64,000 nucleotides of DNA from Lichtheimia corymbifera B2541 (lineage: Eukaryota > Mucoromycota > Mucoromycetes > Mucorales > Lichtheimiaceae). Location of the stretch: contig JNEU01000984.1 of assembly GCA_000697475.1 (NCBI GenBank), positions 1 to 64,000 of the forward strand, read 5' to 3'. The notes beneath the pieces are model-generated. The model had not been told where the DNA came from, searched no databases, and was given only the letters and a program-made list of their open reading frames with translations. The position numbers and the translations under genes were made by a program. The first letter of the stretch is position 1. Each line of letters begins with the position of its first letter. Of the stretch, positions 856-60,198 are shown in pieces.

Positions 856-1612
856 TGTGGTGTGTTGAAAAGGAGAGGGAGCAACTAAACTGATGGCGCC
901 TTGGGGAGAAATTTTTTTGGGAGCCAACCGACTAGAACTCAGGGGTGTGGATGCTCATTGTTCAAGCCTGCGTCATCACTCGCCCGCTCTCTTTCAACTT
1001 GCGGACATGTCTGTGCCACTCATTGGATCAGATAATACAAATCCCTGCTACTGCTATATTATGTCAAACTACATAATTTTATTACTTTCTTGATATCATT
1101 TTCCCCCTCCCCTTGATCATATTACCTATTCTTCATCCTAACAACCATCATCCCAACAATCCTAACAAATGATGTCAAATACCATCCTCCTCCTCCATCC
1201 ACAACATCAGCTAATAGAAGATCAATAACAATATATTACCACCTTCACTTTTAAGCTCTCAACTCCATGATTTGTAGCAATGACTTGAAATGTGTAAAAG
1301 CTGGGTTAACCGAGGTCGCGCGCGGATGAACCGGGAAAGAAGTATTTAATTAATCAAACGGTCCGAGAAGCCGCACAAGACGTTCTTGTATTGTGTAAGA
1401 CAACCATGCCGCCGGAATTGACAATTGGCTCAATGGAGTTGAAAGTCGGCCCGTGTTTTCCGTCATATGCAAAGGGCGATCATTACATGTATGAGAGGAT
1501 ATCCCCGGTCAATTATTACCCCGTACCCCGGGATCAGAATAATATATAAAGTGGATCGTGTCAATCTTCATCGGTTTTCTATATCGAACTTTTTATTCAA
1601 ATCTTCTATAAC
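856..1612. other. Intergenic, divergent promoters of ATP1 and the first Sulfotransfer_4 gene
   Basis: No convincing coding sequence. The right side holds the promoter of the gene at 1613: a TATA box (TATATAAA) at about 1543-1550 and, 15-30 bases upstream, the motif TTACCCCG followed by a CCCGGG. CT-rich stretches at 1095-1200 are typical of fungal 5' regions. Confidence 0.5.
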
Positions 1613-2442
1613 ATGGCTCCTCTTCAAGTTATTGGCGCTGGCTATGGCCGTACAGGCACTGATTCCCTTCGTGAAGCTCTCAACATTTTGGGGTAATGCA
1701 ATCCTTTATATCCATCCGGTCAAGATGATGCTAATAAGAATACATATTCATTTTATAAAAGCTATAACTGCCATCATATGAGAGAACTACTCGCACAAGA
1801 TCGTAACCCAGAAATCTTCCTTGAAGCCTATCAGAACCCTGACAAGCCTGCTGATTGGGATAAAGCTTATGAAGGATTTGATGCAGCTGTTGACTGGTAA
1901 GGCTGATGAGAACATGATATGTCAGCAGCAGTGAATTGAATATGATATGTGATAGGCCTACTGCTTCCTTTGTTGAACCACTTTTGAAAAAGTATCCCGA
2001 TGCCAAATGGCTATTGACCGACCGGGATCCCGATACCTGGTACAAGTCTGTAAAGAATACAATCCACCAAGGTGCTGCGACACGAACCCCAGAGGAGATT
2101 GCTGCCTTGCCTGACTATTTACAAAGGACCTTCAAGATGGCAAAGACGGTTGTGATGGATGGTGCTCTTGGCGACGCTGAACGTTTTGCCGATGAAGAAG
2201 CCATTAAGGAAAACTTTAGGAATCATTACGAGTGGGTCAAAAAGACCATTCCTGCCGACCGGCTACTTGTATTGCAATTAGGCGAGGGCTGGGATAGATT
2301 GTGTGAATTCCTCGGCAAACCTGTTCCTGATGTGCCCTATCCTCGATCTAACTCAACCGCTAATTTCCGTAATGAATTCTTGAAAACCTTTGTTCCTGCT
2401 GCCAAACAGCAACAAGAAGGAAATCAAACAGCAGCTGCTTAA
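1613..2442 (+). CDS. Sulfotransfer_4 family protein, copy 1
   Basis: P-loop protein of the Sulfotransfer_4 family, often mislabelled as an NAD-dependent epimerase. Exons 1613-1692, 1762-1896 and 1956-2442 give 233 residues. The N-terminal loop GAGYGRTGTDSLREAL (residues 8-23) resembles the 5'-phosphosulfate-binding loop of sulfotransferases, and TDRDPDTWYKSV matches the family's conserved central block. By family knowledge it should transfer a sulfuryl group from PAPS, but no member close to this one is known to me to be characterised, so the substrate is unknown. It is followed 1.2 kb downstream by a tandem copy that shares its first two intron positions. A strong TATA box sits about 65 bases upstream of the ATG. 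Confidence 0.88.
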
Positions 2443-3637
2443 AAGCAATATATCACCGTTTTCACTTGAGAACACCTTTATATAAAGAATAAATACCTTT
2501 TCTATATGGAGTAGTACGACGTTACCAATATTTGATCTGGGTATTTCGCTATATGACGCAATATTCGAAATCCGTGATCCAGTGTCGGACATTCTTTTGA
2601 CCGAGTTCCATGCATTACGATATACCCATTCCCCGCCAATACCTCCAACACCCCTTTTTGATCGTATCACAGCATGATTTTCTACGTTATGAGTGAGACA
2701 CCATGAGGAATCACGAACATCTTAATCTTTACTCTTATACATTCATGCTTCGTTCTTTTGTATTTTACCTCATTGTGGAACAGCACGACTCGCTGCTTGT
2801 CGCCTTGTTGAGGCAACCCTCATCTATTATAAGCGTGACATTGTATAGGCTGTGCTGACCTTTTAAAAATGATTCCATGGCAATAACAGCATAATGGGAT
2901 AACACATGCATTGTGCAGCTTAGTGAATATAAAAATGCGTTTAGCGTTTTGCTAGGTGTCCATTGTTGTTTGTATGACACCTCGTGTTCACAGGGCCCTG
3001 CCGAGCTGAGTTACGCATTCTAACCATGCCCTTAAGCCCCATCTCCCTGCGTAAGCAGCCAGTATGGTTCCCCAGCGGCTGTATTATCCTTCTACCCATA
3101 CATTGTACATTCATTGTCGACATTCAGTATGTAGCAAAGTACACCATCCTGCCAACAAATCATCATTCTCCTCCATTCTATTGTTAGGCTATACCACAAC
3201 GTGATACCATTACGTTGTTCACCTACAGCCACCCTTGCCATCCCCAGCCTTATTATCATATTTCAACTTGAAACGTGTGTAACAAACAATAGCAGAATGC
3301 CTACTGATTAAAGCACCAGGTTTGTGGTAAGACATCCTGTCATCAGACGTCTTTTACAAATGGGCCGAAAAGAAGCCGAACATGCTATGCTAATATTATC
3401 AGGCTCTATACAAACATTGGTCCATAGAACTACCACATGTCTCCAACTTTTTTTTAGAAACGATCCAGTCGCCTGCAAATTAACAATTGAGCCATGTATC
3501 CTTGACCGGGTGAACATGATACAGGAGCAGCCCCCACCTTCGTGTGTCGTATTCCGTAAAAAACGCCATTTATAACGAGCCTAAATCTACCGCTTTGAAT
3601 CCTGGTTCATCTTTCTCTTTCCCATATCTCTTATAAT
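2443..3637. other. Intergenic between the tandem Sulfotransfer_4 copies
   Basis: About 1.2 kb. Short ORFs exist on both strands but none has protein-like composition or splice signals that join them. I see nothing else. Confidence 0.4.
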
Positions 3638-4568
3638 ATGGCCCCTTTGCAAGTTATTGGTGCTGGTTGCGGCCGTACAGGCACTGATTCCCTTCGTGAA
3701 GCTCTCAACATTTTGGGGTATGTAATGCAATAGCAGTGAAATCTTTATCTCGTCCGCATGGGATACTAATAATAAGAATGCGCAATCATTGATAATATAG
3801 CTATAACTGCCATCATATGAGAGAACTATTCAATCAAGATCGTCATCCAGAAGTCTTCCTTGAGGCGTATAAGAACCCTGACAAGCCTGCTGATTGGGAT
3901 AAAGCTTATGAAGGATACGATGCGGCTGTTGATTGGTAATAATAATTGATGATAGTACTGGAGAGGTCGTCAATGCGCAACAGCAATGAATTGAATATGA
4001 TGTATGATAGGCCCACTGCTTCCTTTGTTGAGCCTCTTTTGAAAAAGTATCCTGATGCCAAATGGATATTGACCGACCGGGATCCCGATAAGTGAGTGAT
4101 CTGTCAACATGTCGTCTACATATGCCGACTCACACGGTAACATTTGGCGACATCAATGATAGCTGGTATGAATCTGTAAAGAACACGATCCACCAAGCTG
4201 CTGTGTTACGAACTCCAGAAGAGATCGCGGCCATGCCTGAACACCGGCGAAGGGCTCTGAATATGGCAAAGACGGTGGTGATGGATGGTGCACTTGCCGA
4301 TCGTGAGCGTTTTTCGGATGAGGACGCGATAAAGGCGTATTTCAATAATCATAACGAATGGGTGAAAAAGACGATTCCTGCCGACAGACTGCTCGTCATG
4401 CAATTGGGCGAAGGCTGGGATAGGTTGTGCGAATTCCTTGGTAAACCTGTCCCTGATGTGCCTTATCCACGAGCCAACTCGACTGAAACCTTCCGTAATC
4501 GATGGACAGAGACTACAGCTTCTCTTGCTAAGACTTTGAAAGAACAATCAGTCTCAGCATCACAGTAA
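3638..4568 (+). CDS. Sulfotransfer_4 family protein, copy 2
   Basis: Tandem paralogue of the gene at 1613, also 233 residues. Exons: 3638-3717, 3801-3935, 4011-4091, 4163-4568. The first two introns are at the same positions as in copy 1. A third intron (4092-4162, 71 bases, GTGAGT...AG) splits the Asn codon in DPD-N-WYESV, a place where copy 1 and the copy at 33.2 kb have continuous coding sequence. Removing it restores exactly the same total coding length (702 bases) as copy 1, which supports the model. The P-loop reads GAGCGRTGTDSLREAL, with Cys replacing the usual aromatic residue. Function as for copy 1: predicted sulfotransferase, substrate unknown. Confidence 0.87.
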
Positions 4569-15781: not shown

Positions 15782-16600
15782 ACATCATCGCATTTCTTAC
15801 GCATACACAAACGATCTCCCACCGTATATAAATAAAGATAACTGTCTTAAAAGTCCAAAGGATGATGATAGTAGCTGCCATGGAATAGCGTGTAAAGTAG
15901 TATAAGTACCAATCGTTTGGGGTGAAGCGTCAAGGTCAAGTTGACAATGGATGTACCCTTTTTCCACGTGTTGTATACGCACCCACATCCTTCCATCCCA
16001 TCACCAAAACAATATTCAATAAGAATTCGTATGTATTGAAAGCAAGTTGCTACACATAAATAAAGCTTGCTCTATTTAATGACTATCTGCTGTTCAAGTG
16101 AAAAAGGCTGCTGCAAGTAACTTGGGATATGGGAGTAAAGACTTGGCTGATAGCAACTGCTGGGTACGCTTGGTCGCGGCAGAGAAGTGTGCAAGCGTGT
16201 GTGTTGTAGAGTGACAAGACGGTGAATGCTGTTTTAGACAATGCGGTAAAGACATCGCTAATAGCAACTGCTGGATTGAGGCTGTTACGATTGATTGTGG
16301 CAGAAGAGTGTACAAGGGAACGTCCAGTGTCAAGGATTGCAGGTGTTGTTGTAGTGGAGTGCTGACGCCATGAACTTGCCATTCAGTCAAAGGCTTTCAG
16401 ATCAAGACAGTTATAGCATTAACATGATGGGTTGAAGCAGGACAATCGATCGCAGGCGGTAATTGTACTTGAATGGGGCAACAGTTGTGAATGGAAAAAG
16501 AGGCAAGAAGTTGGGAGTGGGAAGAGGTGGAAATTAAATCTGTCAGGCAGTCAGACATACCCATATACACTGGTATCAATGCATGATATTGGGATTGCCT
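15782..16600. repeat. Intergenic with a two-copy tandem repeat of about 115 bases
   Basis: Two imperfect direct copies lie at about 16095-16215 and 16216-16330, recognisable by the shared core GATAGCAACTGCTGG preceded by GTAAAGAC. On the minus strand the block is open as a 99-residue ORF (16083-16382) with an internally repeated sequence (PAVAIS-VFT), which I take to be a by-product of the repeat. No gene seen in the flanks. Confidence 0.5.
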
Positions 16601-16605
16601 GTTTC

Positions 16606-17120
16606 GAACCTCAAACTTTCACACAGTATGCTCTAGGACATCCTGAACAACTTTGTCTTAAAAAAGAACCCACACTTCATTTGAAAATTTCGAAAAGGAG
16701 AGCATAATGTGGGGTTGACTATGATGGATGAAAATTGGGAAAGCGCCGGATTTATGAAAAAGTCAATTAGTATGTAGTTTCTTGAGATTCCCCATTTCGC
16801 ACTTGAAACTTGGTCAGAAGGTTCTCTGGGACATGCTGATCAACTCCATTCATTTAAAAACCGCATGGTTCATTATGAACATTTTGAATGCCGGCCAGCC
16901 CAAATGTAAGAGAAAAGTAGGTCGGCGCTCCTGTTCCTCGAGATTGCCCACGTTGAACCTGAAACTTACACACAACACTCTTTCAACCACGTCGAGCAAT
17001 TTCGTTCCCATAAAGACCCCAGAGTTCATTATGAAAACATTGAATGTGGGAGAGACGACGAATGGATGACAACATAAATAGGGTGTACGGCCGTGCGCGC
17101 CGATATTGCTCTTCGGGACG
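16606..17120. repeat. Array of three diverged copies of a fold-back element arm
   Basis: Direct, diverged copies of a roughly 80-base motif at about 16615-16695, 16800-16885 and 16963-17045; a fourth begins at about 17120 and forms the left arm of the next element. Each has the pattern GAAACTT, then about 25 bases to GA(T/G)CAA, then an A-rich stretch with CCC(A/C) and TTCATTATGAA. Spacing is about 160-185 bases. The same motif in better-preserved form makes the arms of the elements at 17120-19340. Confidence 0.65.
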
Positions 17121-17515
17121 TCGAAACTTCGTCAGGAGGTGCACTCGGTCATGCTGATCAACATCGTTCTCATAAAGCCTCTACACATCATTATGGGAAT
17201 TTGAAGAAACAGGTACCTTCATGTTTTACCTATGCTGTAAGTGTGATGCCATAGGAAAGGTGGTGTTTGTTCATTGTCAAGTAGCTTGACCCTGATAGAG
17301 CGGAAGATGCAGACGGACTTCTTTGTGCAACACAGCTCACTTGCATGATACTTCACAATGAGCAAACACCACTTATCACATAGCATCATGGTTACAGCAT
17401 ATGTAAAAACACAAAGGTGACTGTATCTCCAAACTTTACAATAAAACGTGGGGTCTTCAATCGAACAAAGTTGCTCGTCGGGGTGAAGCGCACCTTGGGT
17501 GCAAGTTTCACGATC
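17120..17515. repeat. Fold-back element A
   Basis: Left arm from about 17120 (GTCGAAACTTCGTC, strongly diverged) and right arm ending at 17515 in GTTTCACGATC are inverted relatives of each other, separated by a core containing GATGCAGACGGACTTCTT. The arms contain the conserved blocks CATATGCTGTAA and GTGTTTGTTCATT and their complements. No coding capacity. Confidence 0.75.
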
Positions 17516-17650
17516 AGGGTCGCCGATCCGAGATTTCGCAATGTCACCACCAGCCAAAGTGGATCGTGGGTCGACCTCTCGAATTTTTTTTTCGACTTTG
17601 GCTGGTGGTGACATTGCGAAATCTCGGATCGGCGACCCTGATCGTGAAAC
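17505..17650. repeat. Perfect palindrome, 56-base arms
   Basis: 17505-17560 and 17595-17650 are exact reverse complements (56 of 56 by eye), ends GTTTCACGATCAGGG and CCCTGATCGTGAAAC, with a 34-base loop containing a T9 run. The outer 11 bases coincide with the terminal bases of the neighbouring elements, so it works as a linker between element A and element B. Confidence 0.9.
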
Positions 17651-17909
17651 TTTTTTTTTTTTGTGTATGGCCCGTAGGCGTTTATTGTAATACGACCTCG
17701 TATCGCAGAGTGACGTGGCCGTGGCAGATACAAAAAGTGATCAAATGGAAATACAAAATAAGAGTCTATATAGTGGGCTAATTATACTGATAAAGATGAA
17801 TATAGATGGCTGGCATGTGCAGCCACAGCTGTGGAGATAAAAGTGGTGTTGTTGAAGATGGTAGACCAATGGGCGGACCATATGGCTTGGAGAATTGATC
17901 GTGAAACTT
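17640..17909 (-). mobile_element. 5'-truncated LINE-like retrocopy with poly(A) tail and 13-base target-site duplication
   Basis: Direct repeats GATCGTGAAACTT at 17640-17652 and 17897-17909 flank 244 bases found nowhere else in the array. Read on the minus strand the insert has an open frame of about 37 codons (including QAIWSAHWSTIFNN) ending in TAA near 17773, then a 3' untranslated part, AATAAA at 17686-17681 and a poly(A) run at 17662-17653. This is the signature of target-primed reverse transcription. The coding fragment looks like the C-terminus of a non-LTR reverse transcriptase, by general resemblance only. Removing it restores a direct join of the palindrome linker to element B, just as the second linker joins element C. 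Confidence 0.75.
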
Positions 17910-18294
17910 GCACCCAAGGTGCGCTTCACCCCGACGAGCAACTTTGTTCGATTGAAGACCCCACGTTTCATTGTAAAGTTTGGAGATACAGTCACCTTTG
18001 TGTTTTTACATATGCTGTAACCATGATGCTATGTGATAAGTGGTGTTTGTTCATTAAGAAGTATCATGCAAATGAGCTGTGTTGCACAAAGAAGTCCGTC
18101 TGCATCTTCGACACTATCGGGGTCTACCTAATTGACAATGAACAAAGACCACTTGTCATATAGCATCAAGCTTACAGCATATGTAAAACATAAAGATAGC
18201 TGTATCTCTAAACTTTACAATGAAACGTGGGGTCTTCAATCGAACGAAGTTGCGCGGCGGGGTCAGGCGCACCTTGTGTAGAAGTTTCACGATC
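17897..18294. repeat. Fold-back element B
   Basis: Begins GATCGTGAAACTTGC at 17897 and ends with the inverse, GTTTCACGATC, at 18294. The arms of about 165 bases (17897-18060 and 18131-18294) are near-complementary over their length and flank a core of about 70 bases. It is the best-preserved copy of the family and has no coding capacity, so it resembles a MITE or fold-back element. Confidence 0.85.
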
Positions 18295-18430
18295 GTCGTG
18301 GCCATTCTCAGATTCACCCAATGTCACCCACCAGCCAAAGTGGATCGTGGGTCGACCTCTCGAATTTTTTTTCAACTTTAGCTGGTGGTGACATTGCGAA
18401 ATCTCGGATCGGCGAGCCTGATCGTGAAAC
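18285..18430. repeat. Second palindromic linker (diverged left arm)
   Basis: Same organisation as 17505-17650: right arm 18375-18430 is nearly identical to its counterpart, the left arm 18285-18341 has accumulated many differences. It lies exactly between the ends of elements B and C and shares their GATCGTGAAAC termini. Confidence 0.8.
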
Positions 18431-19340
18431 TTGCACACAAGGTGCGCTTCACCCAGACGAGCAACTTTGTTCGATTGAAGAACCCACGTTTCATTGTAGG
18501 ATTTAGAGATACAGGCACCTTTATGTTTCACATATGCTGTAAGCGTGATGCTATATGACAGGCGGTCTTTGTTGATTGTCAAGTAGCTTGAGCCTAATAG
18601 AGCCAAAGATGCAGAGGGGCGTGTTTATGTAGCACATCTGTTTGGGGGTGAACAGAAAGGGCGAATGCATGATAGATAATGTATGATTCGATAACGGTCA
18701 TACATTGGCAGCTAACATGTACTTTTTTTTTCATTCCAGCTTTTGCTCAATCCACTTGATGGGAATGATGCGCCTACTCCAGTCGAGCACTTCCATGATT
18801 CAATTGTCTTGATCCGAGCTGATTTGGCTGAGTTACGCGCAAATAAAGAGATATCAGTTGAGATATATAATGCGTGCTATATGTATGAGCTGATATGCTC
18901 TTTGTTTGAGCGTAACTCGGTCAAATTGGCTCGGATCACGAAAGTTGAATCATGGAAATGCTCGACTGGAGCATATGCATCGTTCCCATCAAGTGGGTTG
19001 GGCAAAAGCTGGAATGGAAAAAAAGTACATGTTAGCTGCCAACGTATGCATTGAAAATGAAGTTTGTGTACCTGTAATGCATTACCCTCCCAGGTCAACC
19101 CAACCAGATGTGCTACACAAGCACGTCCCTCTGCTTCTTTGGCCCTATTAGGCTCTAGCTACCTGACAATGAACAAAGACCACTTTCCATATAGCGTCAC
19201 GCTCACAGCATGTGTAAAACAACATAAAGCTGCATGTATCTCTAACCTTTTCAATGAAGCGTGGGCTCCTTAATAGAACAAAGTTGCTCGTCTTGGTCAA
19301 GAGCACCTTCTGACCAAGTTTCATGTTCGAGTTCACCGAT
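18420..19340. repeat. Fold-back element C, about 920-base imperfect palindrome
   Basis: Left arm 18420-18862 and right arm about 18895-19340 are imperfect inverted copies over some 440 bases each. The outer parts repeat the arm of element B; the inner parts add a segment containing TTGGCAGCTAACATGTACTT and its complement, with a central loop of about 30 bases. Mirrored short ORFs on the two strands come from the palindrome and are not genes. After 19340 a diverged piece of linker arm (CACCGATCCCTGATTTTGC) continues to about 19365. Confidence 0.85.
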
Positions 19341-19593
19341 CCCTGATTTTGCAGAGCCGCCTATCATTATATTTGCTTGTATGAATAGAGCAATAATGAG
19401 TTACAGTTCATGTAAAAATGAATGCTACGTAATTGTTGTAATGTGGTTGAATAAACGTGTAAGCTAATAATAAACCATCAGTCCATGGGTAGTGGTGAGA
19501 AGCTCATTCAACGAGAAATCAGTTCACACGCGAAGTGAGCAAGCCGGGTCGTTTATAAGGGTGGAAATTGGATTTATTTGCGATGGCCTTCCA

Positions 19594-33239: not shown

Positions 33240-34153
33240 TTAAGAAGAACCGGCAGCGCTGGCATCCTTGCCGTATCCATACATGTCCTTTATTCTGTCA
33301 AAAAAGTTAACGTCAGAATTGATCATCTTCTTGAATGCATCAGTGCTGTTGACGCTAGGATAAGGTTCGCTTGGCACAGGCTTATCCAAGAACTTGCACA
33401 ATCTCTCCCAGCCTTCACCGAGCTCCATGATCAATAAGCGATCACTGGGGATGTTCTTCTTGACCCATTCGTTATGAGCGTTATACAATCCCTTGATACG
33501 TTCCTCATCCAAAAAGCGGTCAAGGTCATCAAATGCACCATCGAGAACAATAGTACGGATCATTTCACCCTGATTCTTGATATCCTCAGGCAAATCATCG
33601 GGTTCATCTTCCTTCCTGGTCTTGTGTTGCACTTGCCAAATCGTGTTCTTGACGGATCTGTACCAGCTGTCGGCATCTCGAATAGTCAAGATGAACTTGG
33701 CACCAGGGTATTCAACCATCAATCGATCAATAAAAGTTACGGTAGGCCTAGAAGTAGTTGACATGTTAACACGCATGAAATTTATAGCTCAGCTATACAC
33801 CCATACCAATCCACGGCAGCATCAAATCCCTCATAGATCGTGTCCCAGTCAACAGGTTTCTCAGGATGCTTGAAAGCTTCAGTGAACTTTTCTGGGTGAC
33901 GTCCGGGAGCGAACATTTCACGCATGTGGTCTTGCGATTACAAAGTCATGAGTCGAATGGTCAGCATTATAGACACCCCAACCCCACAAAATACATACGA
34001 CACTTGTAGCTGCGGACATATATAGTATTAGATGTTTGTTCAAATGACATGTGTGACAATAAAAGATACATACCCAAGCATGTTCAATGCTGTACGAAGA
34101 CTATCTGTGCCAGTGCGTCCATAGCCTGCGCCGATTACTTTAAGAGGAGCCAT
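33240..34153 (-). CDS. Sulfotransfer_4 family protein, copy 3 (with an 11-base microexon)
   Basis: Diverged paralogue of the genes at 1.6 and 3.6 kb. Exons: 34153-34074, 34009-33999, 33930-33807, 33747-33240 (240 residues). P-loop GAGYGRTGTDSLRTAL; conserved TIRDADSWYRSVKNT and LIMELGEGWERLCKFL. The second exon is only 11 bases: an extra intron splits the His codon in GYKC-HHMREMF where the other copies are continuous, while the intron found only in copy 2 is absent here. A longer acidic insertion (RKEDEPDDLPED) follows the WYRSVKNT block. The upstream region has TATATAA at about 34212-34218 and the motif CGGGGTAA, the complement of one upstream of copy 1. Confidence 0.86.
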
Positions 34154-59929: not shown

Positions 59930-60048
59930 ATAGTGTTATCTTACATGGATAACAATCTGCTTAGATAGTTGTAAAGTGTTACATGCGCCCTTTGTGGTGG
60001 CAGTAGTGGCAGTGGTGGTGGTGGGTGAATGCACATGAAAGGAAAGCG
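59930..60048. repeat. Decayed duplicate of the His-rich CDF exon
   Basis: On the plus strand it repeats the order seen at 59800-59890: TGTAAAGTG, a GTGGTGG run, then CATGAAAGGAAAGCGTAC. The His codons are broken (TGGCAGTAGTGGCAGTGG). It leads directly into the CGTACC repeat. Confidence 0.65.
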
Positions 60049-60198
60049 TACTCGTACCCGTACCCGTACCCGTACCCGTACCCGTACCCGTACTCATAGT
60101 ACTCATATACGTACTCATATACGTACTCATATACGTACCCGTACCCGTACCCGTACCCGTACTACTCCGACCGGGTACGGGTACGGGTACGGGTACGC
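60049..60198. repeat. CGTACC hexanucleotide repeat with inverted end
   Basis: Six or more CGTACC units, then a TACTCATATACG variant block, then four further CGTACC units, then after CCGACCGG the complement (GGGTACGGGTACGGG), so the right end can fold back on the rest. Open on both strands as Thr/Arg or Gly/Thr repeats, which I regard as non-coding. Confidence 0.9.

Follow-up and report, generated by a model that had tools for sequence, protein, structure and literature searches.

A gene-free block in the genome of Lichtheimia corymbifera is best read as one locus of a high-copy, dispersed family of non-coding hairpin arrays in Lichtheimia, and these arrays as the target sites of one lineage of non-LTR retrotransposons, whose insertions lie at the arm end, mostly at AAGTTTCACGATC; we give this reading a probability of roughly 75%. 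The arrays are considered the target of a site-specific lineage because, among 17 copies detected of the element's 3′ end, 16 join an arm end and because two loci other than the window's duplicate their own variant of the motif. The sequence analysed was a stretch of 64 kb, hereafter the window, which is part of contig C314, and the genome searched comprised 35 Mb in 432 contigs.

Structure of the hairpin block

Analysis of the window revealed a succession of modules in the order outer arm, diverged direct arm copies, hairpin A, linker 1, hairpin B, linker 2 and large hairpin C (Table 1), and GATCGTGAAAC delimits the linkers. The block contains no ORF of 150 aa or longer, in agreement with a first-pass annotation that had described it as gene-free, and the shared outer bases ascribed there to the linkers were likewise recovered. 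The left limit had to be moved. It had been set at 16,606, but the segment 16,014-16,605 itself matches other loci, so that the locus begins further to the left, with similarity to other loci from about 15,856 and a limit at about 15,850. On the right side, the similarity between loci stops within a half linker, near position 19,361 and slightly short of the annotated end at 19,365, and the right outer arm is missing from the window copy.

Table 1. Modules of the array locus and of the inserted element, in window coordinates.
Feature	Position	Strand	Basis or remark
Outer flank, "type 2" side, common to some relatives	15850..16013	+	Similarity onset 15,856; graded, without sharp end
Outer arm containing its own short direct repeat	16014..16605	+	Genome matches; 25-mer count
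Arm sequence, three diverged direct copies	16606..17116	+	Repeat detection, arm alignment
Hairpin element A, left arm diverged	17117..17515	.	Inverted-repeat detection, module annotation, arm alignment
Palindromic linker 1 (hp module)	17516..17639	.	98% complementary; 29-mer counts
Target duplication at poly(A) end, AAGTTTCACGATC on minus strand	17640..17652	-	AA indistinguishable from tail
Non-LTR retrotransposon 3′ end, 5′-truncated, AATAAA and poly(A)	17653..17896	-	17 genomic copies found; 98% to C146 copy; junctions
Target duplication, second copy, also left end of hairpin B	17897..17909	-	Junction reading
Hairpin element B	17897..18294	.	DNA fold z -24
Palindromic linker 2, same site without insertion	18295..18419	.	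Inverted-repeat detection, module annotation
Large hairpin element C, B-like arms flanking a second palindrome	18420..19328	.	DNA fold z -39; inverted-repeat detection
Inner palindrome of C	18640..19098	.	At least 40 places in genome
Half linker; right similarity limit	19329..19361	.	Linker likeness judged by eye

The construction of the block from one arm sequence in both orientations was borne out by the detection of inverted pairs and by arm alignment. A and B were recovered as an inverted pair of 317 nt (92%), both B and C were found to contain inverted arms, and the arms of the linker palindrome measured 61 nt (98%); the main arm pairs of the window are 80-92% complementary and so fall short of identity. 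The block (2,760 bp) contained 544 14-mers whose reverse complement lies in the same block. Over 200 shuffles that preserved dinucleotides, such 14-mers averaged 0.46 and never exceeded 5, and in 79 other segments of these 64 kb the median was 0 and the highest count 66, so that the block lies far above chance. When folded as single-stranded DNA, B and C gave z-scores of -24 (100 shuffles) and -39 (20 shuffles), respectively. Outside the block, inverted repeats were most numerous at hexamer microsatellites (CGTACC and CGGGTA units) at window positions 60047-60197.

Alignment of nine arm copies in both orientations, selected by us, revealed 91-99% mutual identity among the right arm of A and the left arms of B and C, and 76-90% identity of the right arms of B and C to these three and to each other, with A's left arm and each of the three direct copies at 52-67% to all other arm copies. 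The three diverged direct copies annotated ahead of A were recovered in this analysis, but the divergence of the left arm of A equals that of the direct copies. Hairpin C corresponds to a B-type hairpin whose loop holds the second palindrome. Comparison with Rfam gave below-threshold matches only, the best being the plant miRNA hairpins MIR8675 and MIR1435; a relation to plant miRNAs was set aside, since such matches were read as generic hairpin likeness. The linker pattern had 0 exact matches in viral contigs.

Elsewhere in the window, a direct duplication at 1598-4396 was made up of four pairs of pieces, 77-92% identical and spaced about 2.0-2.1 kb apart, and probably represents two tandem copies of one gene, the start of which was read by eye as MAPLQVIGAGYGRTGTDSLREALNILG. 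A sulfotransferase domain was found at 33240-33776, and our guess is that the duplicated gene resembles it. The window also contains a kinesin-21-like frame that is 94% identical to an L. hyalospora protein.

Genome-wide distribution and module grammar

A search of the genome placed the block within an abundant dispersed family, not as an isolated structure. With up to 3 mismatches, a 25-mer of the outer arm occurred 653 times (325 + 328) in the 35-Mb genome against 0 for the reversed control, and a linker 29-mer was found at 221 + 201 places genome-wide (control, 0). The block gave at least 391 matches (40 of 1,201 first-look candidates scored) and the outer arm at least 41 (40 of 999 candidates scored), the long ones outside the window being 79-89% identical, and the inner palindrome of C was present at 40 or more places, that is, 80 matches on both strands (40 of 202 candidates scored). 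At roughly 2.4 kb per outer arm, a rough inference is that the arrays amount to about 1.5 Mb, or 4-5% of the assembled sequence. For L. corymbifera, the published genome description gives an estimate of 4.7% repeats by Repbase/Censor and a k-mer analysis that agrees with a low content (PMC4133162); the Repbase/Censor estimate could miss an undescribed family, whereas the agreement of the k-mer analysis counts against a large repeat content.

Module annotation of 45 stretches, all chosen by similarity and including the window locus (also present as L051), showed a linker adjoining a hairpin in 44 of them, with L043 lacking a linker. The earlier reading of the block as element-linker-element-linker-element is right, and its hairpin-linker unit recurs in related stretches. 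Many stretches consist of outer arm, direct copies, hairpin, linker and hairpin, often mirrored on the opposite side and with a varying number of hairpins, and the array edges occur at differing module positions among loci. By eye, the flanks of the two-armed loci were of type 1 plus type 2 in seven of nine cases and of type 1 twice in the other two; exact termini were sought by aligning the type 1 and type 2 outer flanks, in which likeness fades gradually and neither is sharp. In L015, an insert of about 747 bp (3186-3932) splits a hairpin arm; by eye it consists of type-2-flank-like sequence and a G-rich end, and a clear target duplication was sought around it and not found. Among the 100 exact outer-arm matches listed, 16 lie near a contig start (<3 kb) as against 3.7 expected, so that the arrays probably break the assembly.

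To compare arms between loci, 29 arms were used, including the window and leaving out L026 (split match) and L002-L008. Identity between loci was 0.892 for same-side arms and 0.893 for different-side arms. Mean identity within a locus was 0.924 versus 0.890 when permuted, a value reached in 0 of 20,000 permutations (9 loci), and the two arms of a locus were mutual nearest neighbours in six of the nine two-armed loci, the exceptions being L011, L014 and L015. The arms of one locus may be kept alike by gene conversion or by repeated inverted duplication. L010 (C174) shows an exact mirror of 851 bp just outside its arms, while the arms themselves are 93% alike, and L048 and L049 are large, symmetric palindromes that extend to contig ends; these exact or near-exact mirrors may be true young palindromes or assembly misjoins.

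Retrotransposon insertion at the arm end

Linker 1, annotated at first as a palindromic linker, retains a 124-bp palindrome like that of linker 2, but the further 244 bp that separate this palindrome from hairpin B are a retrotransposon fragment with its target duplication, linker 2 being the empty form of the same site. On the minus strand, AAGTTTCACGATC flanks these bases on both sides, and they include AATAAA and poly(A) as well as a short 3′ sequence; in the C146 copy, the corresponding 3′ end is 98% identical to this piece. A search with the 3′ end, the query including one copy of the 13-nt target, resulted in 17 places (all 17 candidates scored), a lower bound given that diverged copies may be missed. 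With modules read by eye, the 3′ end was joined to the arm end in 16 of the 17 copies: in 14, poly(A) is followed by AAGTTTCACGATC or a one-base variant and then by the linker, which is the hairpin/linker junction, and in two (L061, L069) by the direct-copy version of the arm end. In the remaining copy (L062), poly(A) is followed by other DNA, outside the arm. The probability of finding at least 16 of 17 copies in arrays by chance is 2e-20 if arrays make up 5% of the genome and 9e-11 if they make up 20%, assuming independent copies; not all are independent, since L064 and L065, near contig ends, share 75 nt after poly(A) and look like one locus found twice.

The duplications flanking the element differ among loci. 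The C408 and C212 copies duplicate AACTTTCACGATC and AAGTTTCATGATC, respectively, in each case the locus's own variant at both ends, as a true target duplication would give, and the C146 copy shows a shorter duplication, AAGTTTCACGAT. The length of the duplication is given as 11 to 14 bp because the AA of the motif is indistinguishable from the poly(A) tail. The copies differ in their 5′ ends but have a common 3′ end, which is the pattern that target-primed reverse transcription gives. Site use, tail and duplication are observed; as to mechanism, a putative endonuclease of the element would nick after GATCGTGAAACTT, and reverse transcription on poly(A) would be primed by the new 3′ end at the nick; the window carries one presumed product of this kind, 5′-truncated, in linker 1. 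By analogy with rDNA for R1/R2, the arrays may serve as abundant gene-free landing sites.

Upstream in the C146 copy, a reverse transcriptase frame was identified (RVT_1, E 9e-23), together with a zf-RVT match below its cut-off, and LINE-1 and R2 chains are among 10 PDB matches of this reverse transcriptase. Frames of 437 aa in C408 and 436 aa in C212 carry CCHC knuckles (20.6 and 21.0 bits, respectively; cut-off 20.8); they were considered as the partner of a DNA transposon and assigned instead to ORF1 of the retrotransposon. In both C408 and C212, an open frame starts in the hairpin arm and continues into ORF1, so that the arm might supply upstream sequence of ORF1, which we take only as a lead. 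Such frames lie at 946-2256 (minus strand) in L055 (C408) and at 798-2105 in L027. The 14 protein matches of ORF1 comprised seven from L. ornata, three from L. corymbifera, one from L. hyalospora, one unnamed and two weak ones (Parasitella, Mucor); the 12 relatives other than the latter two were 51-74% identical to the C408 frame. A protein of L. corymbifera JMRC:FSU:9682 matched an array-borne ORF1 with 99.7% identity over 315 aa.

Relatives of the reverse transcriptase gave 36 matches in the genome (44 candidates, all scored), of which six lie in frames of 1,287-1,297 aa. The 3′ region was read in three related ORF2-bearing copies. In L072, poly(A) is joined to the hairpin centre, not to the hairpin/linker junction; L071, in which no run of poly(A) is seen, ends adjoining an apparent linker arm; in L070, poly(A) is present, with only weak array (hairpin) remnants about 230 nt further on. 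We advance tentatively, and at less than even odds, that a genus-wide hairpin array is a dedicated home for several site-specific LINE lineages that differ in their insertion point, one using the hairpin/linker junction, another the centre of the hairpin and perhaps a third the linker arm, the array supplying upstream sequence for their transcription, in an rDNA-like arrangement on non-coding DNA.

Origin of the arrays

The arrays could be non-autonomous DNA transposons of Foldback type, with a transposase coded elsewhere and the retrotransposons as a secondary passenger, which we regard as doubtful. Direct copies inside the long inverted arms of two-armed loci and dispersed copies numbering hundreds speak for this, but the edges fall at different module positions, the arms show no left and right lineages, and a domain scan of 10 repeat-region ORFs found no transposase domain, its hits being a zinc knuckle (L027), a nucleoporin POM152 domain (L041, which looks like a host gene) and, below the cut-off, a Galactosyl_T match (L024). 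A MULE domain was found at nine genome places, none of them among the array places in our partial lists, so that neither the 10 scanned ORFs nor this comparison yielded the known transposon with a coding partner that the first-pass annotation had weighed against its own reading. The Merlin superfamily has been reported in L. corymbifera (PMC8101967). No clear target duplication of a whole array was seen in 15 loci, a negative result that is weak because the array edges are fuzzy; words of 8-9 bp were shared exactly near the edges in five of the 15, three of which (L009, L010, C136) lay within 30 bp inside both edges and not at them. A Foldback-like non-autonomous route is possible for the first spread of the arrays. 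A reasonable, though not favoured, alternative is that the arrays are no transposon but satellite-like DNA, in which a single arm is multiplied by template switching and inverted duplication: this would account for the occurrence of one arm sequence in both direct and inverted arrays, for the likeness of arms within a locus and for the large symmetric palindromes of L010, L048 and L049. The last two, however, stand at contig ends and may be assembly artefacts, and this process alone leaves unexplained the hundreds of dispersed places with the same outer arm.

It is improbable that the arrays are kept for a chromosome function, as replication origin, heterochromatin or a source of dsRNA for RNAi; in favour of this, the block is hairpin-forming, has no long ORF and is present in hundreds of genome copies, but the arrays differ widely in length and in the modules that they contain, and the copy in the window is truncated. 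Palindromic misjoins in the assembly, to which the exact mirror flank of L010 and the excess of outer-arm matches at contig starts could be ascribed, are a very improbable source of the family, since the main arm pairs of the window are not identical and copies differ among loci.

Relation to known systems and significance

Tx1L of Xenopus inserts into the Tx1D repeat and is thus a LINE with another repeat family as its specific target; the present system is alike in that a LINE targets a repeat family, but host kingdom, target structure and target number differ. A LINE-type reverse transcriptase, a 3′ tail at one motif in most copies and a target-site duplication were all found here. In the target-specific non-LTR elements of the Utopia, R2, Tx1 and R1 clades, in parts of the account given in PMC4640811, a reverse-transcriptase element likewise uses a single site within a multicopy sequence for its integration, whereas the target here is a dispersed hairpin repeat and not rRNA or snRNA genes or microsatellites.

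The arrays look like Foldback elements in plan, and membership is not claimed. They contain long, putatively terminal inverted repeats that hold tandem subrepeats; exact ends were looked for and not found. Long inverted arms, internal tandem copies, modularity and a majority of copies without coding region are shared with Foldback elements, as described in parts of the reports on Tetris of Drosophila (PMC4079207), with a target-site duplication of 8-10 bp, and on Galileo (PMC3573991). Unlike these, the arrays showed no clear target duplication in the 15 loci with fuzzy edges and no link to a transposase in the ORFs and places covered, form strings of hairpins separated by palindromic linkers with arms alike within a locus, and number in the hundreds within a compact fungal genome.

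Neither Foldback arrays nor target-specific non-LTR elements are new in kind (PMC4079207, PMC4640811, in the parts consulted). By title and start of abstract, the literature covered, which was partial and outside Repbase, holds no description of this array family or of a site-specific LINE in Lichtheimia. The apparent novelty, within that partial coverage, is the combination of a LINE lineage and the hairpin arrays that it targets in a fungus.

Some of the contig breaks in the assembly may be due to the arrays, and these raise the question of whether, by possibly making double-stranded RNA, they silence or shelter their resident elements. If our reading is true, Lichtheimia would provide a natural system of site-specific retrotransposition in early-diverging fungi, with an abundant non-coding target, that would be useful for studies of target choice and for targeted insertion tools.
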